15,497 bases of DNA from Candidatus Delongbacteria bacterium (GTDB lineage: Bacteria; UBA4055). The notes beneath the pieces are model-generated. The model did no database searches, was not told where the DNA came from, and saw only the letters and a program-made list of their open reading frames with translations. Made by a program: the position numbers and the translations under genes. Below are positions 6,386 through 15,437 of this stretch, in pieces. The DNA lies in assembly GCA_016937995.1 (NCBI GenBank), contig JAFGVM010000093.1, positions 1-15,497 on the forward strand. Direction: 5' to 3'. The stretch's first letter is position 1. Every line of letters begins with the position of its first letter.

Positions 6386-8521
6386 TTATAATTTGAAGAA
6401 TTCCCAGACTTGACCCTGAGAAGTCCTAGAAAGCAGATCATCCACAAATTCTTTCTTATGAAGATAGGTTGATATTCCTGCTAAAACCCTGATATGCGGG
6501 TCATTCTTTTTTGTTGATGAAACAAGCAATATGATAACCTTTGTAGGCAAACCATCTATAGAGTCAAAATCAATTCCATTTTTTTTAAAACCAACTGCCA
6601 GTTGAACCTGTTCAGTTCCCTCTGTTCTTGCATGTGGTATTGCAAGACCATTCTGCATACCTGTGCTGATAACACTTTCTCTTGCCATCACTTCATTAAA
6701 GATATCATCCTTATTTATGATCTTCCCGTTCTTTTCCAAAAGATCAACTAGCTCTCTGATCACTTCTTCTTTTGTATTTCCTTTAAGGTCCATTTCTATA
6801 CAATTCGGATCCAATATCTTTGTAATATCAATATTTACTCTGGCTTTTTTATCGGGCATTACAGTTTTTCTCAACTCATCTGGATTGGTCATGTCCTTTA
6901 ATTTATCGAGATTATATTTCAATTTCATGAATGATTCATAGATCATTGTTCTTACAAATGACATATCCTCAGCTTTAGTATTGAAAATTATCCTATCTGA
7001 AAATTTATCAAGCCTTACAAAAATATCATCCTTTCTAATATGGTAAATTTCATAATCCAATGTCATTTTGTTGATAAAGAAACCTTCATTGTCGAAATAT
7101 TTTATAATATACGATTCAAAGAACTCAGTTCTTTCGGAATTATCCAAATACAATTCATATGATTCACTTGTCATATCTTTTACTTCTTTTCTAGTTCCGC
7201 GTTTTTTATCTTTCAATACCATATTGAGTAGTGGTGGGGGAATTAATATACTCATAAGGATCATCAGTATTACTATTCCATAGATCTCGGAGTCAATGAA
7301 ATTGTTTGATAGACCAATACCTGCTATAATAAAGCCTACTTCACCTCTGGGGACCATCCCTAAACCGATCCGTAAACTTCCCAGCTTATTAAAACCGGTA
7401 AATAATGCGGGAATACCGCAACCGAATATTTTTCCAAGAATAGCAACAATACCATAAGCAAAACCGATATATAACATTTTACTGTCAATGGCGTTAATAT
7501 TTACCAACATACCCATAACGGTAAAAAATATAGGAACAAAAAATACTTTCAATGGATGGATAGTGTCTTGAATAACATAATTAATATCAGTATTTGATAA
7601 GGTTAATCCCATTACATAGGCACCTATTATCATTGCAAGACCTGCGCTTTCAAATATTCCTGCTAAAAACAATGCAAATCCGAATGATAGAACGGTGAAA
7701 GTATATTTATCTTTAAATATTTTGAGGAACTTACTTATCTTATTCGACAAAAGTAATCCTACCACTGTAAATCCAATCCAAACAATGACAGCTTTGAATG
7801 AGATCACACTTATCTCCACCCAATCAATAGCCCCACCCACCGTAACCACAGTCGAAACACCTAAGATGACAGCCAACAAAATAATACCTAACACATCATC
7901 TATTATAGCTGCTGATAAGATCGTAACACCTTCTGGTGACTCCATATATTTTTTCTTTGATAATATCCTAGCAGTTAACCCGACAGAAGTAGCTGTACTT
8001 ATTACACCGAGAAACAAACATTTTGGATCCAAAAAATGAAGATCGAAAAGATACATTCCTGCTAAAACACCCGGAAAGAAAGTACCAACAAGTCCTCCGA
8101 TCCCAACTATAGAACCGGTAATTGAATATTTTTTTAATAAATTGATGTCCGTTTCCAACCCTGCTATGAATAGTAACATAATGGATGCTATTACAGATAC
8201 TCCATATATCTCCGAACTAATTGGAATTGCTCCATCATTCAAAGGGAAAAAGCCATTCGGGAATCCTAAAAAAGGAAGAGGAATCTTCCCAAGCATATAC
8301 GGACCTATCAATATCCCGGCAGTCAATTCACCCAGTGTAGTAGGTAAATTAAACTTTTCAAATAAAAGTCCGAATCCTCTTGCAGCAAATATTATCAGTC
8401 CAAGATGAAAAACAAAAGAGGTCATTAAATGTATAATGTTATCCTGCTTGGGAACATGCTCCGATGCAAAGATCATTGTTGAAGACAGTAGAACATAGAC
8501 TACAATATTTTTTAAGTTCAT
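6386..8521 (-). CDS. Cation:proton antiporter fused to a PTS EIIA domain
   Basis: This encodes 711 residues. An N-terminal signal-like segment (1-20) precedes a CPA2/Kef-like antiporter region of about 12 membrane segments (30-435). It includes LPTTLGELTAGILIGP, GLETDINLL, the paired acids AAIIDDVLGI (D208-D209) expected for ion exchange, and PRGEVGFI (391-398). A soluble linker (440-560) leads to a fructose/nitrogen-type EIIA domain (565-711) with GLAIPHAR, where His630 is the usual phosphorylation site. Such fusions are known. The likely role is monovalent cation/proton exchange gated by phosphorylation or nutrient state, which is inference. The start overlaps the upstream lipoprotein stop as ATGA, so translation is probably coupled. 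No convincing ribosome binding site is visible. Confidence 0.9.
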   Translation of the reverse strand: MNLKNIVVYVLLSSTMIFASEHVPKQDNIIHLMTSFVFHLGLIIFAARGFGLLFEKFNLPTTLGELTAGILIGPYMLGKIPLPFLGFPNGFFPLNDGAIPISSEIYGVSVIASIMLLFIAGLETDINLLKKYSITGSIVGIGGLVGTFFPGVLAGMYLFDLHFLDPKCLFLGVISTATSVGLTARILSKKKYMESPEGVTILSAAIIDDVLGIILLAVILGVSTVVTVGGAIDWVEISVISFKAVIVWIGFTVVGLLLSNKISKFLKIFKDKYTFTVLSFGFALFLAGIFESAGLAMIIGAYVMGLTLSNTDINYVIQDTIHPLKVFFVPIFFTVMGMLVNINAIDSKMLYIGFAYGIVAILGKIFGCGIPALFTGFNKLGSLRIGLGMVPRGEVGFIIAGIGLSNNFIDSEIYGIVILMILMSILIPPPLLNMVLKDKKRGTRKEVKDMTSESYELYLDNSERTEFFESYIIKYFDNEGFFINKMTLDYEIYHIRKDDIFVRLDKFSDRIIFNTKAEDMSFVRTMIYESFMKLKYNLDKLKDMTNPDELRKTVMPDKKARVNIDITKILDPNCIEMDLKGNTKEEVIRELVDLLEKNGKIINKDDIFNEVMARESVISTGMQNGLAIPHARTEGTEQVQLAVGFKKNGIDFDSIDGLPTKVIILLVSSTKKNDPHIRVLAGISTYLHKKEFVDDLLSRTSQGQVWEFFKL

Positions 8522-9348
8522 TTAAAATTTTCCAGATTTTTTATGATTATCTTTCCACGGATATAATCATAAAGATAAACATTGTTTTTGTCAATAGCCG
8601 AAGAATAGATATCTGTAGAGGATAAATCTATATCTGTAGTTTTTTTTGAATGCTGTAAAGATACTTCAATTGTAAAAATTGCAAGCTTACCATTTTCGTT
8701 AGTTAAAATGACCGGTCTATCTTCAACTATAGACATATTCCCGTAGTTGTTTTCAGACGGAAGGAATATTTCATTCAACTTATTCAGATCACAGTCAAAT
8801 ATTGCTAAGATTTTGGTAGAGTTATCAATAACATATATTTTTTCAGATGCAACAGATAATGAACTCTGACCGAATTTTGATCCATTGGAATTTGAAGAAC
8901 TTATATTTATTTCGGATATTTTTTTTGATTTAGTGTTGATCGAATAGAGCATTTGACCTTCCTGATTTGACCTGGAAGTGACTATCAGATCATTTCCTAT
9001 CTTCGCAATTTTATCCGGGCTGAATACTTTAAAAGTATCAACAATAGAATTATCTTTTAACTTAAATATTTCATCGTAAGTATTCGAATAGTAAATATCT
9101 TCACCGTCTAAAACAAAATCCAGCACAAAGTCCCTTCCATTTATATCAATATCTGAGACTGTTACTAGAGAATCACCATCTATCTTCTGAATAGATGAAT
9201 TCGTGGAATTTAGAACATACGGTTCATTATCATACAATTTGATCATGTTTATTGCACCATGAGAAGAAGTATCAATGATAATGTCTTCCTGAATTGAACT
9301 GCATGAAACAAGTATGAGTAAAAAAGCGATTAAAAATAGAATTTTCAT
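8518..9348 (-). CDS. Predicted lipoprotein with beta-propeller-like repeats
   Basis: This encodes 276 residues. The signal is short and hydrophobic, with lipobox LVSC and lipidated Cys16. The mature protein is nearly all beta. Blades recur about every 40 residues: DGEDIYYSNTYDEIFKL, GNDLIVTSRSNQEGQMLYSI, SEKIYVIDNSTKILAIF, NGKLAIFTI and KNNVYLYDYIRGKIII. These suggest a small propeller sensing or binding something at the membrane. It lies 20 bp after the beta-helix gene and overlaps the antiporter by four bases (ATGA), so the three look like one operon. No obvious ribosome binding site precedes its ATG. It is the only gene here ending in TGA; reading through that TGA would add just two residues before a TAA. 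Confidence 0.8.
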   Translation of the reverse strand: MKILFLIAFLLILVSCSSIQEDIIIDTSSHGAINMIKLYDNEPYVLNSTNSSIQKIDGDSLVTVSDIDINGRDFVLDFVLDGEDIYYSNTYDEIFKLKDNSIVDTFKVFSPDKIAKIGNDLIVTSRSNQEGQMLYSINTKSKKISEINISSSNSNGSKFGQSSLSVASEKIYVIDNSTKILAIFDCDLNKLNEIFLPSENNYGNMSIVEDRPVILTNENGKLAIFTIEVSLQHSKKTTDIDLSSTDIYSSAIDKNNVYLYDYIRGKIIIKNLENFK

Positions 9349-9368: not shown

Positions 9369-10769
9369 TTATTTCAACAGTAAAAATTTACCGTTCATGG
9401 TCTTATCGGGCATTGCAACCTTGACAAAATAAAGACCTGAAACATACTTGTCAAGCATCAGGTCATATTCATTCGATCCCTTTCTTGCATTACTATACTC
9501 GATCTTCTCGAGAAGATCACCCTTGATACTATAAATAAATATATCCGCTGTACAATTATCCTGAGCAGAAAATGTTATCCTGGTTGCTGGATTTGCAGGA
9601 TTTGGATAAATAGTTAACAGATCTGTGCTTATTGGAGTATTCGCTATGGATGTTGGTGTCTGATCCTCAAAAGCTCCCATGTCAACTTTATTATTAACAA
9701 TTCTTGGATTACCGAGAAGATCGAACTCGGGATGGTTCAAATTAAATTCAGCACCTGCTCCTGCATCCTCACAGACGGAATTATCTAATAGAATCCCTGG
9801 TAAATGTTGAGTATCATCAAATGATGGATCTCTGTCTATATTACCATTATATCTCTCTATTCCTTCAATATTATTGTTATACGTAAAATATTCTTTATTG
9901 TAGTGAATTTGCGAAATTAATCCACCGGGACTGTTCCTGATAATATTGTTCACAAAATATGGTTTTGATCTGAATGTAAATATTGCTCCAGGGACATAAA
10001 GTCCATTAAATTCAGATATATAATTATCAATCGCAGTATTATTATAGAAAAAAGAATAAGAATTAATAAAACAAGCTACAGGTCCATTATAACGGGCATA
10101 ATTTTCATAGAATAGATTATTGTTGATCTTAGCCTGAGTGTTTACTGCTCCTATAGCTGCACCATAATTTGCAGAATTATAACGAAAAATATTATTTTCA
10201 ACTGTCAGTTTGGAAAAATTACTTATAACTAATGCACCTCCATAGTATTTTGTAATATTCCATTCATCATACTCGATCTTCTTTGCATATTCTATAACAC
10301 AATATTTGATCGAAGAACTGTCATTTGTTGAGAGAGTATTGTTGAATAAAATGCCTTTCCAGGATCCATTAACAACAGTAAAATCATCAACCGGATCAGG
10401 TTTTTCTGCTGTGAATACTATTCTTTCATCAGGTGTTCCTTCAGCTATAAGAGTTCCCTGAACATCTAAACAGTAAGGACCGGTAAAATTAAATACTGTT
10501 CCGGGTGAAATATTCAGAGTAATACTATCTTCAACAGTGATATCTCCAGTAACTGAAACAGAGTCAGCTCTTATCACAGTATTCCTGCTTATATTTCCAT
10601 GTAGCTCTACCCTATCACCTTCAATTTGATCGTTATATATTTTCTCCTGCTTAGTTTCTTTCTCTTCCGGAATGTAATACGTTTCGCATCCATAACCGGT
10701 CGCAGGAGAACCATCTTCTAATCTGAAATCAAGATTATCCGGATCTTTCAGCTGAGGATCGATATTCAT
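9369..10769 (-). CDS. C-terminal part of a split beta-helix protein with a sorting-domain tail
   Basis: This encodes 466 residues from the first ATG. The opening MNIDPQLKDPDNLDFRLEDG is the usual closing motif of a parallel beta-helix, so the true reading begins upstream: the frame is open to 10820 and reads APPSEWTDAGSAPFNNI before that ATG. Residues 50-310 form a second beta-helix rich in NNxF and YNN turns, closed by IDRDPSF and VDMGAFE (363-369). Residues 380-466 are a sorting or FlgD-like tail (TIYPNPANPATRITF, VSGLYFVKV, KFLLLK), as found in type IX secretion substrates and FCB relatives. There is no signal peptide and no ribosome binding site at 10769, so independent translation is doubtful. 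It is in frame with the fragment at 10833-11495. Confidence 0.75.
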   Translation of the reverse strand: MNIDPQLKDPDNLDFRLEDGSPATGYGCETYYIPEEKETKQEKIYNDQIEGDRVELHGNISRNTVIRADSVSVTGDITVEDSITLNISPGTVFNFTGPYCLDVQGTLIAEGTPDERIVFTAEKPDPVDDFTVVNGSWKGILFNNTLSTNDSSSIKYCVIEYAKKIEYDEWNITKYYGGALVISNFSKLTVENNIFRYNSANYGAAIGAVNTQAKINNNLFYENYARYNGPVACFINSYSFFYNNTAIDNYISEFNGLYVPGAIFTFRSKPYFVNNIIRNSPGGLISQIHYNKEYFTYNNNIEGIERYNGNIDRDPSFDDTQHLPGILLDNSVCEDAGAGAEFNLNHPEFDLLGNPRIVNNKVDMGAFEDQTPTSIANTPISTDLLTIYPNPANPATRITFSAQDNCTADIFIYSIKGDLLEKIEYSNARKGSNEYDLMLDKYVSGLYFVKVAMPDKTMNGKFLLLK

Positions 10770-10832
10770 AATGTTATTAAAAGGTGCCGAACCGGCATCT
10801 GTCCACTCGGATGGTGGAGCTCAACCGTACTC

Positions 10833-11495
10833 TCAAAGCATAGAGAAGTGTACTAAGGGTTCATCTTCATAACGTTCGTTATAACTCCAATTATCTTGCA
10901 ATAAAGGATAACCATACCATTCAAAAGGAGAGAAGGCATAACTGGTACCTGTACGCAGATAATAAGATGGGATAGAATTGTTGAACGGAAAGTCAATGTC
11001 TGTTGAGATACAATTAACAACTAGATTATTATTCAGGAACATGTCTTTTCCTGCTCCGTCCATTCTGACTCCGTAATCGATCGAATTATAGAATGTAATA
11101 TTCCTGACTGATCCGTAAGGGATGTAATATCCGCCCATTCCGTCAGGTGAGCCGCAGTATCTGAGTGTTCCATTGATTATCACACAGCTGTCAATATCAA
11201 GTATGTTAGGCGTATTCCCGAATTGGATCTGACCATTTTTAAGATCAATGATCGCTCCATTCCCCTTTATTCTAACATTTATTTCGTTTACATAATCATC
11301 ATTAAAAGTAAAAGGATTATTAAAATAACCTAAAAAGAGTCCACCAGTATAAAGTTTTCCTTTTTCCAGAACTACAAGCTTATCATATCCCTCACCGGGA
11401 CCTGATCGGTCAAATGCTTCCTTCAAGGTCATTGATGATATGTTTACGAGCATGATCAGTAATGTTAGTATGAATGATCTCACCAAGACTCCCAT
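10833..11495 (-). CDS. N-terminal part of a split secreted beta-helix protein
   Basis: This encodes 220 residues up to the first TGA. A signal peptide (RSFILTLLIMLVNISS) leads into a right-handed beta-helix fold with short repeating strands: NVRIKGNGAIIDLKNGQIQF, CVIINGTLRYCGSPDG, GSVRNITFYNSIDYGVRMDG and DMFLNNNLVVNC. This resembles polysaccharide- or surface-associated helix proteins; no catalytic motif is visible. The start is uncertain. The ATG at 11495 has no ribosome binding site, whereas GTG at 11481-11483 follows GGGAG by 5 nt and still leaves the whole signal peptide. The C-terminal sorting tail is missing from this fragment and lies beyond the TGA codons. It heads the operon with the lipoprotein and antiporter. 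Confidence 0.7.
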   Translation of the reverse strand: MGVLVRSFILTLLIMLVNISSMTLKEAFDRSGPGEGYDKLVVLEKGKLYTGGLFLGYFNNPFTFNDDYVNEINVRIKGNGAIIDLKNGQIQFGNTPNILDIDSCVIINGTLRYCGSPDGMGGYYIPYGSVRNITFYNSIDYGVRMDGAGKDMFLNNNLVVNCISTDIDFPFNNSIPSYYLRTGTSYAFSPFEWYGYPLLQDNWSYNERYEDEPLVHFSML

Positions 11496-11662: not shown

Positions 11663-14194
11663 ATGAAATATTTACTTCTTACATTATTGACAGCTGCTTT
11701 ATTACTTTCAGCAAATGAATATCAAACCTCCAAATACGATACTTTATTTATAAAAGCTTCAGCATCATATCATAATCATCAGAAATATGTAGAACCTGCA
11801 AGATTGCAGATAATCGAACTTGGTGAAGAGATAATGCCGTTCCTTGTTGAGCAGGTTGGCAGCAGACAGCCCAGAGAATATCATGCTATGAGAGATCTTT
11901 TCGGTAGGATCGACAGTAAAAATTCATCCAGGTATTTGATGGATAAGATCAGGCTTATGGACAAGAAGACTTATGGGACAGCAGTGGAATTTCTTGGAAG
12001 ATCAGGTTATAAAAAAGGTCTTGAATTCCTGGCTCCATTTTTACAGGAAGATTCAACCTGGATAAAACTTTCAACTCTGAAAGGAATTGGTGATCTTAAA
12101 GATCCTGCTTCATTAAAATATTTGAGACCTTTTAAAGAAGATAATGATTTTAAAATACGATGGCATACTGCCGCAGCTCTGGGTAAAATAAATACAATTG
12201 AAGCCGACAGAGAACTTGTTTCTATGCTGAATGACAGTTTACAGCTTGTATCCCACACAGCTTTGCACTACCTGGATAATCATTTGAAAAAAGATTCAGT
12301 CGGTATAAGATTCAAAGTTATTTCAAGAACAATGGATTCACCTTTGATCAAGCTGTTACAACAGAAGTACATTGAGAACAAAGTAGTTGATCTTATCTCA
12401 GAGAAAAAGATAGAAACTTCAACTCAGGACACTATTAAACTGATGACAATAAATGATCTTGTTTCTGATAATTCAGTGATATATAATGCTTTAGGGCAAA
12501 TTTATATGGATAAGAATGATTACTTCTTACCAGTGAAGACAGAAAAAGAGTTATTCCTCTTCCCTTCTGTAGCAGAAATGTTCGAAGATCCGATGAAACA
12601 GATATCTGTTCCTGAAAAAACTAAAGATGATTACAAAGATTTCCCAAATATTGATTTTTCAAATCTATCGCAAGAATTCAATGCTTCAACTGAGAATAAT
12701 GAAATAAAAGAAATCGATCTGAATATTTTCACTTACAAAGCTAAAGAAGTTCAGATTATTTTCGATAAGACATGGGAAAAGTATCCTGACATGAAAAAGA
12801 TCATCGATAAGATATCTAATCCTGTAACAGAGGAACGATCTAAAGAAACGGCCGATAAAAGCTCTGATGGACTTGAGGATGATGATATTTCAGTAATGAT
12901 CAGATCAAGGCTAAACGAAAGAAAATATTCTGAAGAAAGTAAAAAATTCTACAAAGAGACTTTAAAAGATATTCAATTACAATATATCATTGAAGCCGGG
13001 ATATCTTCCTACACAGATTTTCTTGGACTGCTTGAGCATTGTAAAAAGAACAAACTTGAAGCAACGACAATGGATACTTCTCTTGGTAGAATCGCTGTTG
13101 GAACTGATGGTGATGATATCTACGAAGGTGAATATTTTCTTATAATTGATCAGGTTGGAAATGACACTTACAAATTAGATAACAGCAAGAACAGATTCAA
13201 CTACATTATTGACCTGAAAGGAAATGACAGGTATATCTCTGCTGAATACGGACCGGCATCAACTTTTAACGGAATTTCATTACTCTATGAAGGTGAAGGT
13301 GATGATATCTATGAATGTACTAATAATTCTTTAGCTTTTGCTGAGTATGGTTTTGCAGTACTGCTTGAAGCAGGTGGAAATGATAAATATCTATCTCTGA
13401 AAAGCTCTCAGGCTTCAGCTTCTTTTGGCTATGCTTGTCTTTGGGATAACGGTGGAAATGACGTATATCTCGGAGAGGAAAAAACTCAGGCATTTGCAGG
13501 AGTAAGCGGATATTCAGTTCTTGTCGATGAGAACGGTAATGACAACTATACATTATCTGGGACACAGGTAGATGTTCTGAGATACAGTGATCACTTTATT
13601 TCAATGGGTCAGGGATTTTCTATAGGCGACAGGGATAATGCTGCCGGCGGAATGGCATTCCTTTTCGATAAACAGGGAAATGATAATTACATCTCTGATA
13701 TATTCGGTCAGGGAGGTGCTTACTGGTTCGCACTCGGAGTTCTCTATGACTTCAAAGGTAACGACAATTATATTTCATACCAATACTCTATAGGTTCCGG
13801 AGTTCACTTAGCTTTTGGCACAGTAATAGATCTTGAAGGTGATGACAGTTATAAATCCAAAGGTGTTTCCATAGGTTGCGGTCATGATTATGCCGGTGGA
13901 ATGTTCTTTGACCTAAAAGGTAATGACAGCTATCAGGCTGAATCCCTTTCAATAGGTGCGGGAAATGCTGATGCAATATCAATTTTCTTTGATGGGCAGG
14001 GTGACGATCTGTACGGAGCTCATCAGGCTAATACAATGGGCTGGTCAGACTGGAGAAGAGATACAGGCTATATAAGTTTATTCATCGAAATGTCAGGTAA
14101 TGATAAATACGGTTCTGCATTCGGAGCAAACAATCAGAAATGGTATCAAGCTACCTGGGGAGTTGGAATGGACTTTGATTTTAAGGTAAGGTAG
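11663..14194 (+). CDS. Exported HEAT-repeat protein with a GND-Y repeat solenoid
   Basis: This encodes 843 residues. A Sec signal (MKYLLLTLLTAALLLSA, cleavage near 17) is followed by HEAT-like helical repeats at about 40-220 (ELGEEIMPFLVEQV, STLKGIGDLKDPASLKYLRP, HTAAALGKINTIEADRELV). A charged helical linker extends to about 470. From 480 to 815 there are 13 copies of G-[ND]-D-x-Y at 483, 499, 520, 546, 572, 598, 625, 672, 699, 726, 753, 780 and 812. The spacing is 26-27 residues through most of the array, with one 20-residue insert after 625. Each copy sits in a strand-turn unit with Gly/Asp-rich turns, suggesting a beta-solenoid with a calcium-binding ladder. The function is unknown; an extracytoplasmic structural or binding role is inferred. 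The TAG stop lies inside a GTAGAGACG motif. Confidence 0.85.
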   Translation: MKYLLLTLLTAALLLSANEYQTSKYDTLFIKASASYHNHQKYVEPARLQIIELGEEIMPFLVEQVGSRQPREYHAMRDLFGRIDSKNSSRYLMDKIRLMDKKTYGTAVEFLGRSGYKKGLEFLAPFLQEDSTWIKLSTLKGIGDLKDPASLKYLRPFKEDNDFKIRWHTAAALGKINTIEADRELVSMLNDSLQLVSHTALHYLDNHLKKDSVGIRFKVISRTMDSPLIKLLQQKYIENKVVDLISEKKIETSTQDTIKLMTINDLVSDNSVIYNALGQIYMDKNDYFLPVKTEKELFLFPSVAEMFEDPMKQISVPEKTKDDYKDFPNIDFSNLSQEFNASTENNEIKEIDLNIFTYKAKEVQIIFDKTWEKYPDMKKIIDKISNPVTEERSKETADKSSDGLEDDDISVMIRSRLNERKYSEESKKFYKETLKDIQLQYIIEAGISSYTDFLGLLEHCKKNKLEATTMDTSLGRIAVGTDGDDIYEGEYFLIIDQVGNDTYKLDNSKNRFNYIIDLKGNDRYISAEYGPASTFNGISLLYEGEGDDIYECTNNSLAFAEYGFAVLLEAGGNDKYLSLKSSQASASFGYACLWDNGGNDVYLGEEKTQAFAGVSGYSVLVDENGNDNYTLSGTQVDVLRYSDHFISMGQGFSIGDRDNAAGGMAFLFDKQGNDNYISDIFGQGGAYWFALGVLYDFKGNDNYISYQYSIGSGVHLAFGTVIDLEGDDSYKSKGVSIGCGHDYAGGMFFDLKGNDSYQAESLSIGAGNADAISIFFDGQGDDLYGAHQANTMGWSDWRRDTGYISLFIEMSGNDKYGSAFGANNQKWYQATWGVGMDFDFKVR

Positions 14195-14318: not shown

Positions 14319-15437
14319 ATGAAAAAGATTGAATTTGAAGAAATTATTTATAAGGGAATTCCAAGCCTTCAATTAAAATTTAAATATAATACTGTAATTC
14401 TCAATTTGATCAAGAAAATTCCAGGCAGAATATGGGATAATGATTTAAAATGCTGGATTATTCCTAAAACAAACAATTATGATAAGCTATATGAACTTTT
14501 CTCTGACAAAGCAGAATTAATTTTTGAAGAAAAGAATGAAATTGAGATAAATAAACCAGAAACTAACAAAACGGAATTTTATACTTCAAATGGTGTGGAT
14601 ATCCCATTTGATTACATAAAATTGCTCGAAATTAAAAGATATGCAGCACCAACAAAAAAGACATATATCGCTAATTTTAAAAGATTTGTAAACTACTATA
14701 AGAATATTGATCCCTTGAATATCACTAAAGATCAGATTAGGGATTATATGCTTTTTTTGATCGAAAAAAGAAATTTATCAGCATCAGCGCAAAATCAAGC
14801 TATCAATGCTATTAAATTTTATTATGAAAAAGTTCTAAATCAAAAAAGAGAAGTATATCGGATAGAAAGACCACGTAAGGCAAAGAAATTACCTGTTGTG
14901 TTAAGCATTGAAGAAATAACTGAAATATTAAAATCAATAAAGAACTTAAAGCACAAATGCATAATTTATACAATTTATTCTGCCGGATTAAGACTTGGAG
15001 AAGTAATAACACTGAAAATCAAAGACATCGACTATGACAGGAAGCAGATATTCATTCAGTCTGCCAAAGGCAATAAAGATCGATACACTCTTCTATCAGA
15101 TACTATTGTAAGTCTTTTACAAAAATATTTTGCTGAATATAAACCTAAAGAATATGTGTTTGAAGGTCAAAAAGGTGGACAGTATAGCAGAAAAAGTGTG
15201 CAGAATATATTAAAAAATGCTTTAAAAAACACTAACATAAAAAAACCAGCTTCTATTCACACTCTAAGACATAGCTTTGCAACCCATCTTCTTGAAGATG
15301 GTACAGATTTAAGATATATCCAGGAATTGCTGGGACATCAAAGTATGAAGACTACTCAGATATATACTCATATTACAAAGAAAGGATTCGATAAAATAAA
15401 GAGTCCACTAGACAATATAAAATTCGATGAAGAATAG
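14319..15437 (+). CDS. Tyrosine recombinase (integrase) with N-terminal HARP-like segment
   Basis: This encodes 372 residues. Residues 1-68 are an extra N-terminal segment (LQLKFKYNTVILNLIKKIPG, then RIWDNDLKCWIIPK) resembling the HARP-like arm module seen in Bacteroidota integrases. Residues 95-175 are the SAM-like core-binding domain. The catalytic domain carries the full set: Arg225 (SAGLRLGEVI), Lys250 (SAKGNKDRY), His314 and Arg317 (HTLRHSFATHLLEDG), His340 (LLGHQSMKTT) and the nucleophile Tyr349. The end, HITKKGFDKIKSPLDNI, is also typical. It is intact and probably active in cutting and rejoining DNA. The ribosome binding site is weak. No partner gene is visible; the right flank is cut by the window end. 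Genes like this sit in mobile islands or invertible and integron-like loci. Confidence 0.92.
   Translation: MKKIEFEEIIYKGIPSLQLKFKYNTVILNLIKKIPGRIWDNDLKCWIIPKTNNYDKLYELFSDKAELIFEEKNEIEINKPETNKTEFYTSNGVDIPFDYIKLLEIKRYAAPTKKTYIANFKRFVNYYKNIDPLNITKDQIRDYMLFLIEKRNLSASAQNQAINAIKFYYEKVLNQKREVYRIERPRKAKKLPVVLSIEEITEILKSIKNLKHKCIIYTIYSAGLRLGEVITLKIKDIDYDRKQIFIQSAKGNKDRYTLLSDTIVSLLQKYFAEYKPKEYVFEGQKGGQYSRKSVQNILKNALKNTNIKKPASIHTLRHSFATHLLEDGTDLRYIQELLGHQSMKTTQIYTHITKKGFDKIKSPLDNIKFDEE

Follow-up and report, generated by a model that had tools for sequence, protein, structure and literature searches.

A candidate exported beta-helix selenoprotein with two closely spaced UGA codons in Delongbacteria

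A gene with two in-frame TGA codons in a Delongbacteria genome most probably encodes a secreted or surface-anchored selenoprotein, with two selenocysteines (Sec), a beta-helix and a type IX sorting tail. We put the probability of this reading at about 0.9, a figure that does not extend to a redox role. The gene lies on the minus strand of the window, by which we mean the whole stretch of 15,497 nucleotides that was analysed. Its frame runs from the ATG at 11495 to the TAA at 9369-9371 (coding 11495-9372) and is open apart from the two TGAs, which read tca on the plus strand. The original prediction had placed these TGAs in one frame, four codons apart, and had seen no frameshift between the two gene halves; the 708-codon open frame confirms both. 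It had also divided the functions between the halves, and indeed a segment resembling a signal peptide precedes the UGAs and the sorting tail follows them. The features of the gene are as follows.

9369..11495, minus strand: whole gene, candidate secreted beta-helix selenoprotein; 708 codons including the two in-frame TGAs, then the TAA stop; homologues were aligned over its length.
11433..11495, minus strand: N-terminal hydrophobic segment, signal-peptide-like (about residues 1-21), from the sequence; a helix at residues 2-19 in the first structure model.
10680..11435, minus strand: N-terminal domain, predicted parallel beta-helix with both Sec sites (about residues 21-272); conserved family core.
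10833..10835, minus strand: UGA1, codon 221; TGA in 6 genes, Cys in 15 and Pro in 1 (with a TGA two codons on).
10821..10823, minus strand: UGA2, codon 225; TGA in 22/22 UGA-bearing genes counted.
9666..10610, minus strand: second beta-helix-like region (about residues 296-610), lacking in the short homologues.
9399..9611, minus strand: C-terminal type IX secretion sorting domain, Por_Secre_tail (residues 629-699); Pfam PF18962 and TIGR04183.

The sorting tail scored over the cut-offs of both models (PF18962, 37.5 bits against 27; TIGR04183, 28.8 against 23), and the sorting-tail region has more than 40 other matches elsewhere in the window's genome. A genome-wide reassignment of UGA was ruled out: the code is unchanged globally, because TGA is the normal stop of the window gene at 8518-9348 and Trp is encoded by TGG in the candidate gene, which has five such codons. 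On the plus strand, the window also encodes an 843-residue protein with HEAT repeats, many GNDxY-like repeats and a signal-peptide-like start (11663-14194) and a tyrosine recombinase of the phage integrase family (14319-15437; PF00589, 143.8 bits).

When related genomes were searched with the read-through protein, in-frame TGAs were found in G002, G009, G010, G004 and G007 (three full-length copies and one short). The proteins of G002 and G009 are 64% and 55% identical to that of the window. A profile of the N-terminal domain led to further relatives in G222, G351, G110, G113 and G115, and 10 of the 20 genomes in the phylum of G222 are carriers, G222 and G351 included. A scan of genome contigs gave one relative only. 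Altogether 22 UGA-bearing genes were counted: the window gene, 8 from genomes of its own family and 13 from genomes of other families. All 22 have TGA at site 2, and they come from at least three phyla, since G113 is the sole genome of its phylum among the genomes searched. On the sequence comparison, this conservation is far beyond chance.

With U for TGA, the window motif is MLUEYGUAPPSEW (U-E-Y-G-U). The same UxxxU arrangement is found in the double-UGA relatives as MLUEYGUGPPQEW, RLUEYGUAGPFTW, MLUEYGUAMPAPW, FLUEYGUIVPYAW and KLUDTGUSAPSSW, while Cys stands at site 1 of MMCDEGUTAPEEW and RLCETGUSEPIPW from the same family. In total, site 1 is UGA in 6 genes, Cys in 15 and Pro in the gene G007a, whose motif LVPEUGUTVPQVW is of the type U-x-U. 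Outside the window's family the motifs are LCEYGU, LCEYAU, LCPYGU, LCWSU and NCGGU; G113 and G115 have Cys three residues before Sec instead of four (CxxU). Site 2 has no simple Cys homologue; the only all-Cys counterpart is distant, a remote UGA-free relative in G007 with WQCCESCGGG in the corresponding stretch (CCESC). Exchange between Sec and Cys is a pattern by which selenoproteins are recognised, and the interchange of UGA and Cys at site 1 matches it. A tree of the domain implies about four changes at site 1 and gives too little support to decide which of Cys and Sec came first there.

G007 (L046, L047, L048, L049 and L081) has four UGA copies, in which site 1 is UGA, a shifted UGA, Cys and Cys, together with the UGA-free CCESC relative; at the G007a locus (L046:3524-5623, plus strand) the first UGA has moved two codons downstream (PEUGU). 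Two overlapping contigs of G110 (the end of L139, and L140:1-500) have few differences, with CPYGU in one and a TAG replacing the Tyr codon beside the UGA in the other, which is either a strain variant or a contig-end error.

These comparisons bear on how the TGAs were first interpreted. The top-ranked explanation had been a young pseudogene or a population polymorphism. We weighed it together with sequencing error, as a reading in which an ordinary beta-helix gene has only lately acquired two nonsense changes. Two TGAs so near each other in a single gene would fit such an event. However, the same TGAs occur in independent assemblies from other genera and phyla, in relatives with 26-67% identity, and the downstream half is still under intact selection. 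The pN/pS of the window gene against G002 is 0.26 before UGA1 and 0.29 after UGA2, and against G009 it is 0.34 and 0.35; the synonymous sites are near saturation, so these values are to be read only as ratios of raw proportions. With purifying selection equal on both sides of the TGAs, both halves of the gene are kept as one protein, and decay or error is extremely improbable.

The comparisons also tell against Trp, which the original prediction had suggested for both sites, naming an alignment of homologues for TGG as a check. The homologues have UGA or Cys at these positions, with Pro once at site 1, and Trp was found at neither site in any homologue compared. Second place had gone to readthrough, which would insert Trp or some other standard amino acid and yield two products, one short and secreted, the other long and anchored. 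The signal-peptide-like segment before the UGAs and the sorting tail behind them would suit it. This reading is nevertheless opposed by the presence of Cys at site 1, by the SECIS-like hairpin and the Sec machinery described below, and by the short homologues, in which a UGA precedes the tail as well; we consider it very improbable. An arrangement of two genes, with a stop at UGA1 and reinitiation at the ATG at 10769, is very improbable. An ATG-start ORF does exist at 9369-10769, but its ATG (NNIMNIDP) is not conserved, G002 having NNITNIDP and G009 NNITDTDP, and the stretch from the UGAs to this ATG is conserved as protein and under purifying selection. Recoding of UGA, which had been listed as one option, is supported here, specifically as selenocysteine.

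A possible recoding element lies just downstream of the UGAs, with a second candidate nearer to them.

10785..10797 (loop 10790-10792), minus strand: SECIS-like hairpin tgccg-GTT-cggca, 28 nt after UGA2 and 40 nt after UGA1.
10802..10818, minus strand: second, upstream hairpin, a possible but weak element for UGA1; its register shifts between homologues.

The published bSECIS model has a loop of 3-9 nt, a stem of 4-16 bp, a G in the first two loop positions and a distance of 16-37 nt from the UGA (PMC13188914). The hairpin at 10785-10797, with its 5-bp stem and GUU loop, matches this model for loop, stem and spacing from UGA2 (PMC13188914). UGA2 with the next 57 nt folds at -12.4 kcal/mol, and the 5-bp hairpin alone has -5.3 kcal/mol, which is above the limit of -7.5 if that limit means the hairpin alone. 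Synonymous-codon nulls for the hairpin gave p values from 0.003 to 0.32 per gene. Because these per-gene tests are weak, the case for the hairpin rests on covariation rather than on single-gene energies. In eight Delongbacteria genes with a hairpin at this place, all cells of the comparison pair, with changes on both sides in 3 of the 5 pairs, and sliding the hairpin partner in the same eight genes lets the pairing fall to 20-40%. In G002 and G007d the encoded residues depart from the common ones (GSA to SLA in G002) and the stem is still kept.

Hairpins were also seen elsewhere in the family. A ninth gene, G007c, with Cys at site 1, has a nearer hairpin (gtggca-GTC-tgccac) at 20 nt. In the second phylum, that of G222, a hairpin like ctggcc-GGA-ggccag lies at 20-22 nt, and those of G113 and G115 lie at 16 and 17 nt with the loops AGTT and GTT. 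The UGA of G110 is at a contig end, and the overlapping contig has a similar stretch in which the hairpin is less clear. The distance from UGA1 to the hairpin, 40 nt in the window gene (43 in G004 and 34 in G007a), is mostly outside the range of 16-37 nt. The upstream hairpin at 10802-10818 was not counted as evidence: it changes register between homologues, a loop G is present in only 3 of the 7 double-UGA genes, and conserved Pro and Trp codons fix its core, so that the protein constrains it. UGA1 would thus be decoded either through one hairpin shared with UGA2 or through two.

The window's genome encodes machinery for Sec insertion. It has a tRNA-Sec with the anticodon TCA (UCA; 58.4 bits, cut-off 47), SelB (334 bits, cut-off 242) and SelD (354 bits, over the cut-off), the last with an in-frame TGA of its own followed by the hairpin aagtcc-GGA-ggactt at 17 nt. 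This UGA-containing SelD serves as an internal control for the reading of UGA as Sec in this genome. In the window's phylum, hits over the cut-off were obtained for tRNA-Sec in 10 of 13 genomes, for SelB in 11 and for SelD in 12, of which 11 have the in-frame TGA. SelB over the cut-off was not found in the carriers G009 and G010, whose assemblies are both fragmented drafts, G009 in 320 contigs (86% complete) and G010 in 230 (91% complete). In the phylum of G222, SelB passed the cut-off in 8/10 carriers compared to 3/10 non-carriers (one-sided exact p of about 0.035).

From the sequence evidence as a whole we strongly infer Sec insertion at the UGAs. The tRNA-Sec, SelB and the SECIS hairpin would together decode both UGAs as selenocysteine. 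The resulting U-E-Y-G-U motif would occupy a loop of a parallel beta-helix, close to the C-terminal end of that helix, and the protein would be exported from the cytoplasm by means of its type IX sorting tail. A minor short form arising from failed Sec insertion is possible.

The N-terminal domain was modelled with confidence by AlphaFold2 from 23 homologues, with Cys standing in for selenocysteine (pLDDT 89.4, pTM 0.89). The domain is predicted to be a right-handed parallel beta-helix, and the Sec motif sits in a loop near its C-terminal end in the model. The best VIA-align match, which covers most of the domain (188 residues, Z 14.3, rmsd 3.2), was 7dmk, a PL6 alginate lyase; many pectate lyases were matched as well, with Z values of 10-14 against right-handed parallel beta-helices. 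Foldseek alone gave weak E-values and no strong match, and a sequence search for solved relatives gave one marginal match. Despite the likeness in predicted fold, the protein has no sequence family match to PL6 alginate lyases or pectate lyases at Pfam cut-offs, and we know of no counterpart of the Sec motif loop in their beta-helices.

The Sec domain forms the family's core, because the short homologues (342-347 residues) consist of this domain and the sorting tail, and G113 and G115 have the domain alone. At about 245 residues, these last two (L142:2506-3240 and L143:1947-2675) are minimal versions that have CxxU and lack a sorting tail. The closest relative, in G002 (L043:3701-5752, minus strand), keeps UxxxU and ends in a different tail, Fn3-like by its sequence, instead of a type IX sorting domain.

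Regarding the function of the motif, the invariant Sec is almost always preceded, at a distance of three or four residues, by a Cys or another Sec. On this spacing, the most likely role is that of a redox couple outside the cytoplasm, in which the pair would form a selenylsulfide, or a diselenide in UxxxU. Alternatively, the same selenoprotein may use the U/C motif as a ligand site for a soft metal or metalloid, a reading that we hold to be possible and rather unlikely. The 2026 catalogue contains double-Sec metal-binding families (MbdU and a UxxU metal-binding protein), and the variable spacing (UxxxU, UxU, CxxxU, CxxU, CCESC) would be tolerable for a ligand site. On the other hand, site 2 is always Sec, as is usual with a catalytic Sec, and the gene neighbourhoods of the copies examined had no conserved neighbours of any kind, metal-related ones included, except with the closest relative. 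A structural cross-link would take the small remainder.

Among known systems, some of the closest are bacterial selenoproteins with C-x-x-U or U-x-x-U motifs. Our protein resembles GrdA, SelW-like and Prx-like UxxU proteins: its in-frame UGA has another Cys or Sec within a few residues, Sec and Cys replace each other among homologues, and a bSECIS-like hairpin follows downstream (PMC13188914, Table 1). It differs from them in its predicted scaffold, a parallel beta-helix and not a Trx-like fold, in the UxxxU or CxxxU spacing of most family members and in the type IX sorting tail. Two Sec per protein are also found in the rhodanese/DsbD fusion-like TsoB (UxxxxU), the FmdB family (UxxU) and MbdU; in TsoB and FmdB they are close together, as here, whereas the domains of all three differ from those of the window protein. 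With type A cargo of the type IX system (TIGR04183/PF18962) it shares the C-terminal sorting domain over curated cut-offs, but the 2026 catalogue lists no selenoprotein as such cargo.

None of the 119 selenoprotein families in that catalogue matches the gene, and the catalogue contains no beta-helix and no UxxxU or CxxxU motif. Likewise, no selenoprotein family of NCBIfam release 20.0 was matched over its curated cut-off; only sorting-tail and choice-of-anchor models matched the protein, and none of any kind matched the Sec domain. Nothing was found in the open-licence literature on UxxxU/CxxxU motifs or on selenocysteine in Delongbacteria. Judged against these three sources, we rate this as a new selenoprotein family with a new scaffold and an unusual double-Sec motif.

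The wider picture, for which we see about even odds, is a widespread family of exported beta-helix selenoproteins. In it, some Delongbacteria would insert two Sec twelve bases apart, possibly using one SECIS hairpin for both UGAs (28 and 40 nt), and the cell surface would thereby carry a diselenide or a metal site. The family would add to the selenoproteins a scaffold and a location (secreted, with a type IX tail) absent from the current catalogue, and it comes from phyla that have been little studied. Since gene prediction programs break genes of this kind at the UGA, the family has probably been mis-annotated. It provides a natural system in which to learn how bacteria decode two close UGAs with one hairpin or two, and it suggests that these organisms may carry out Sec chemistry outside the cell.
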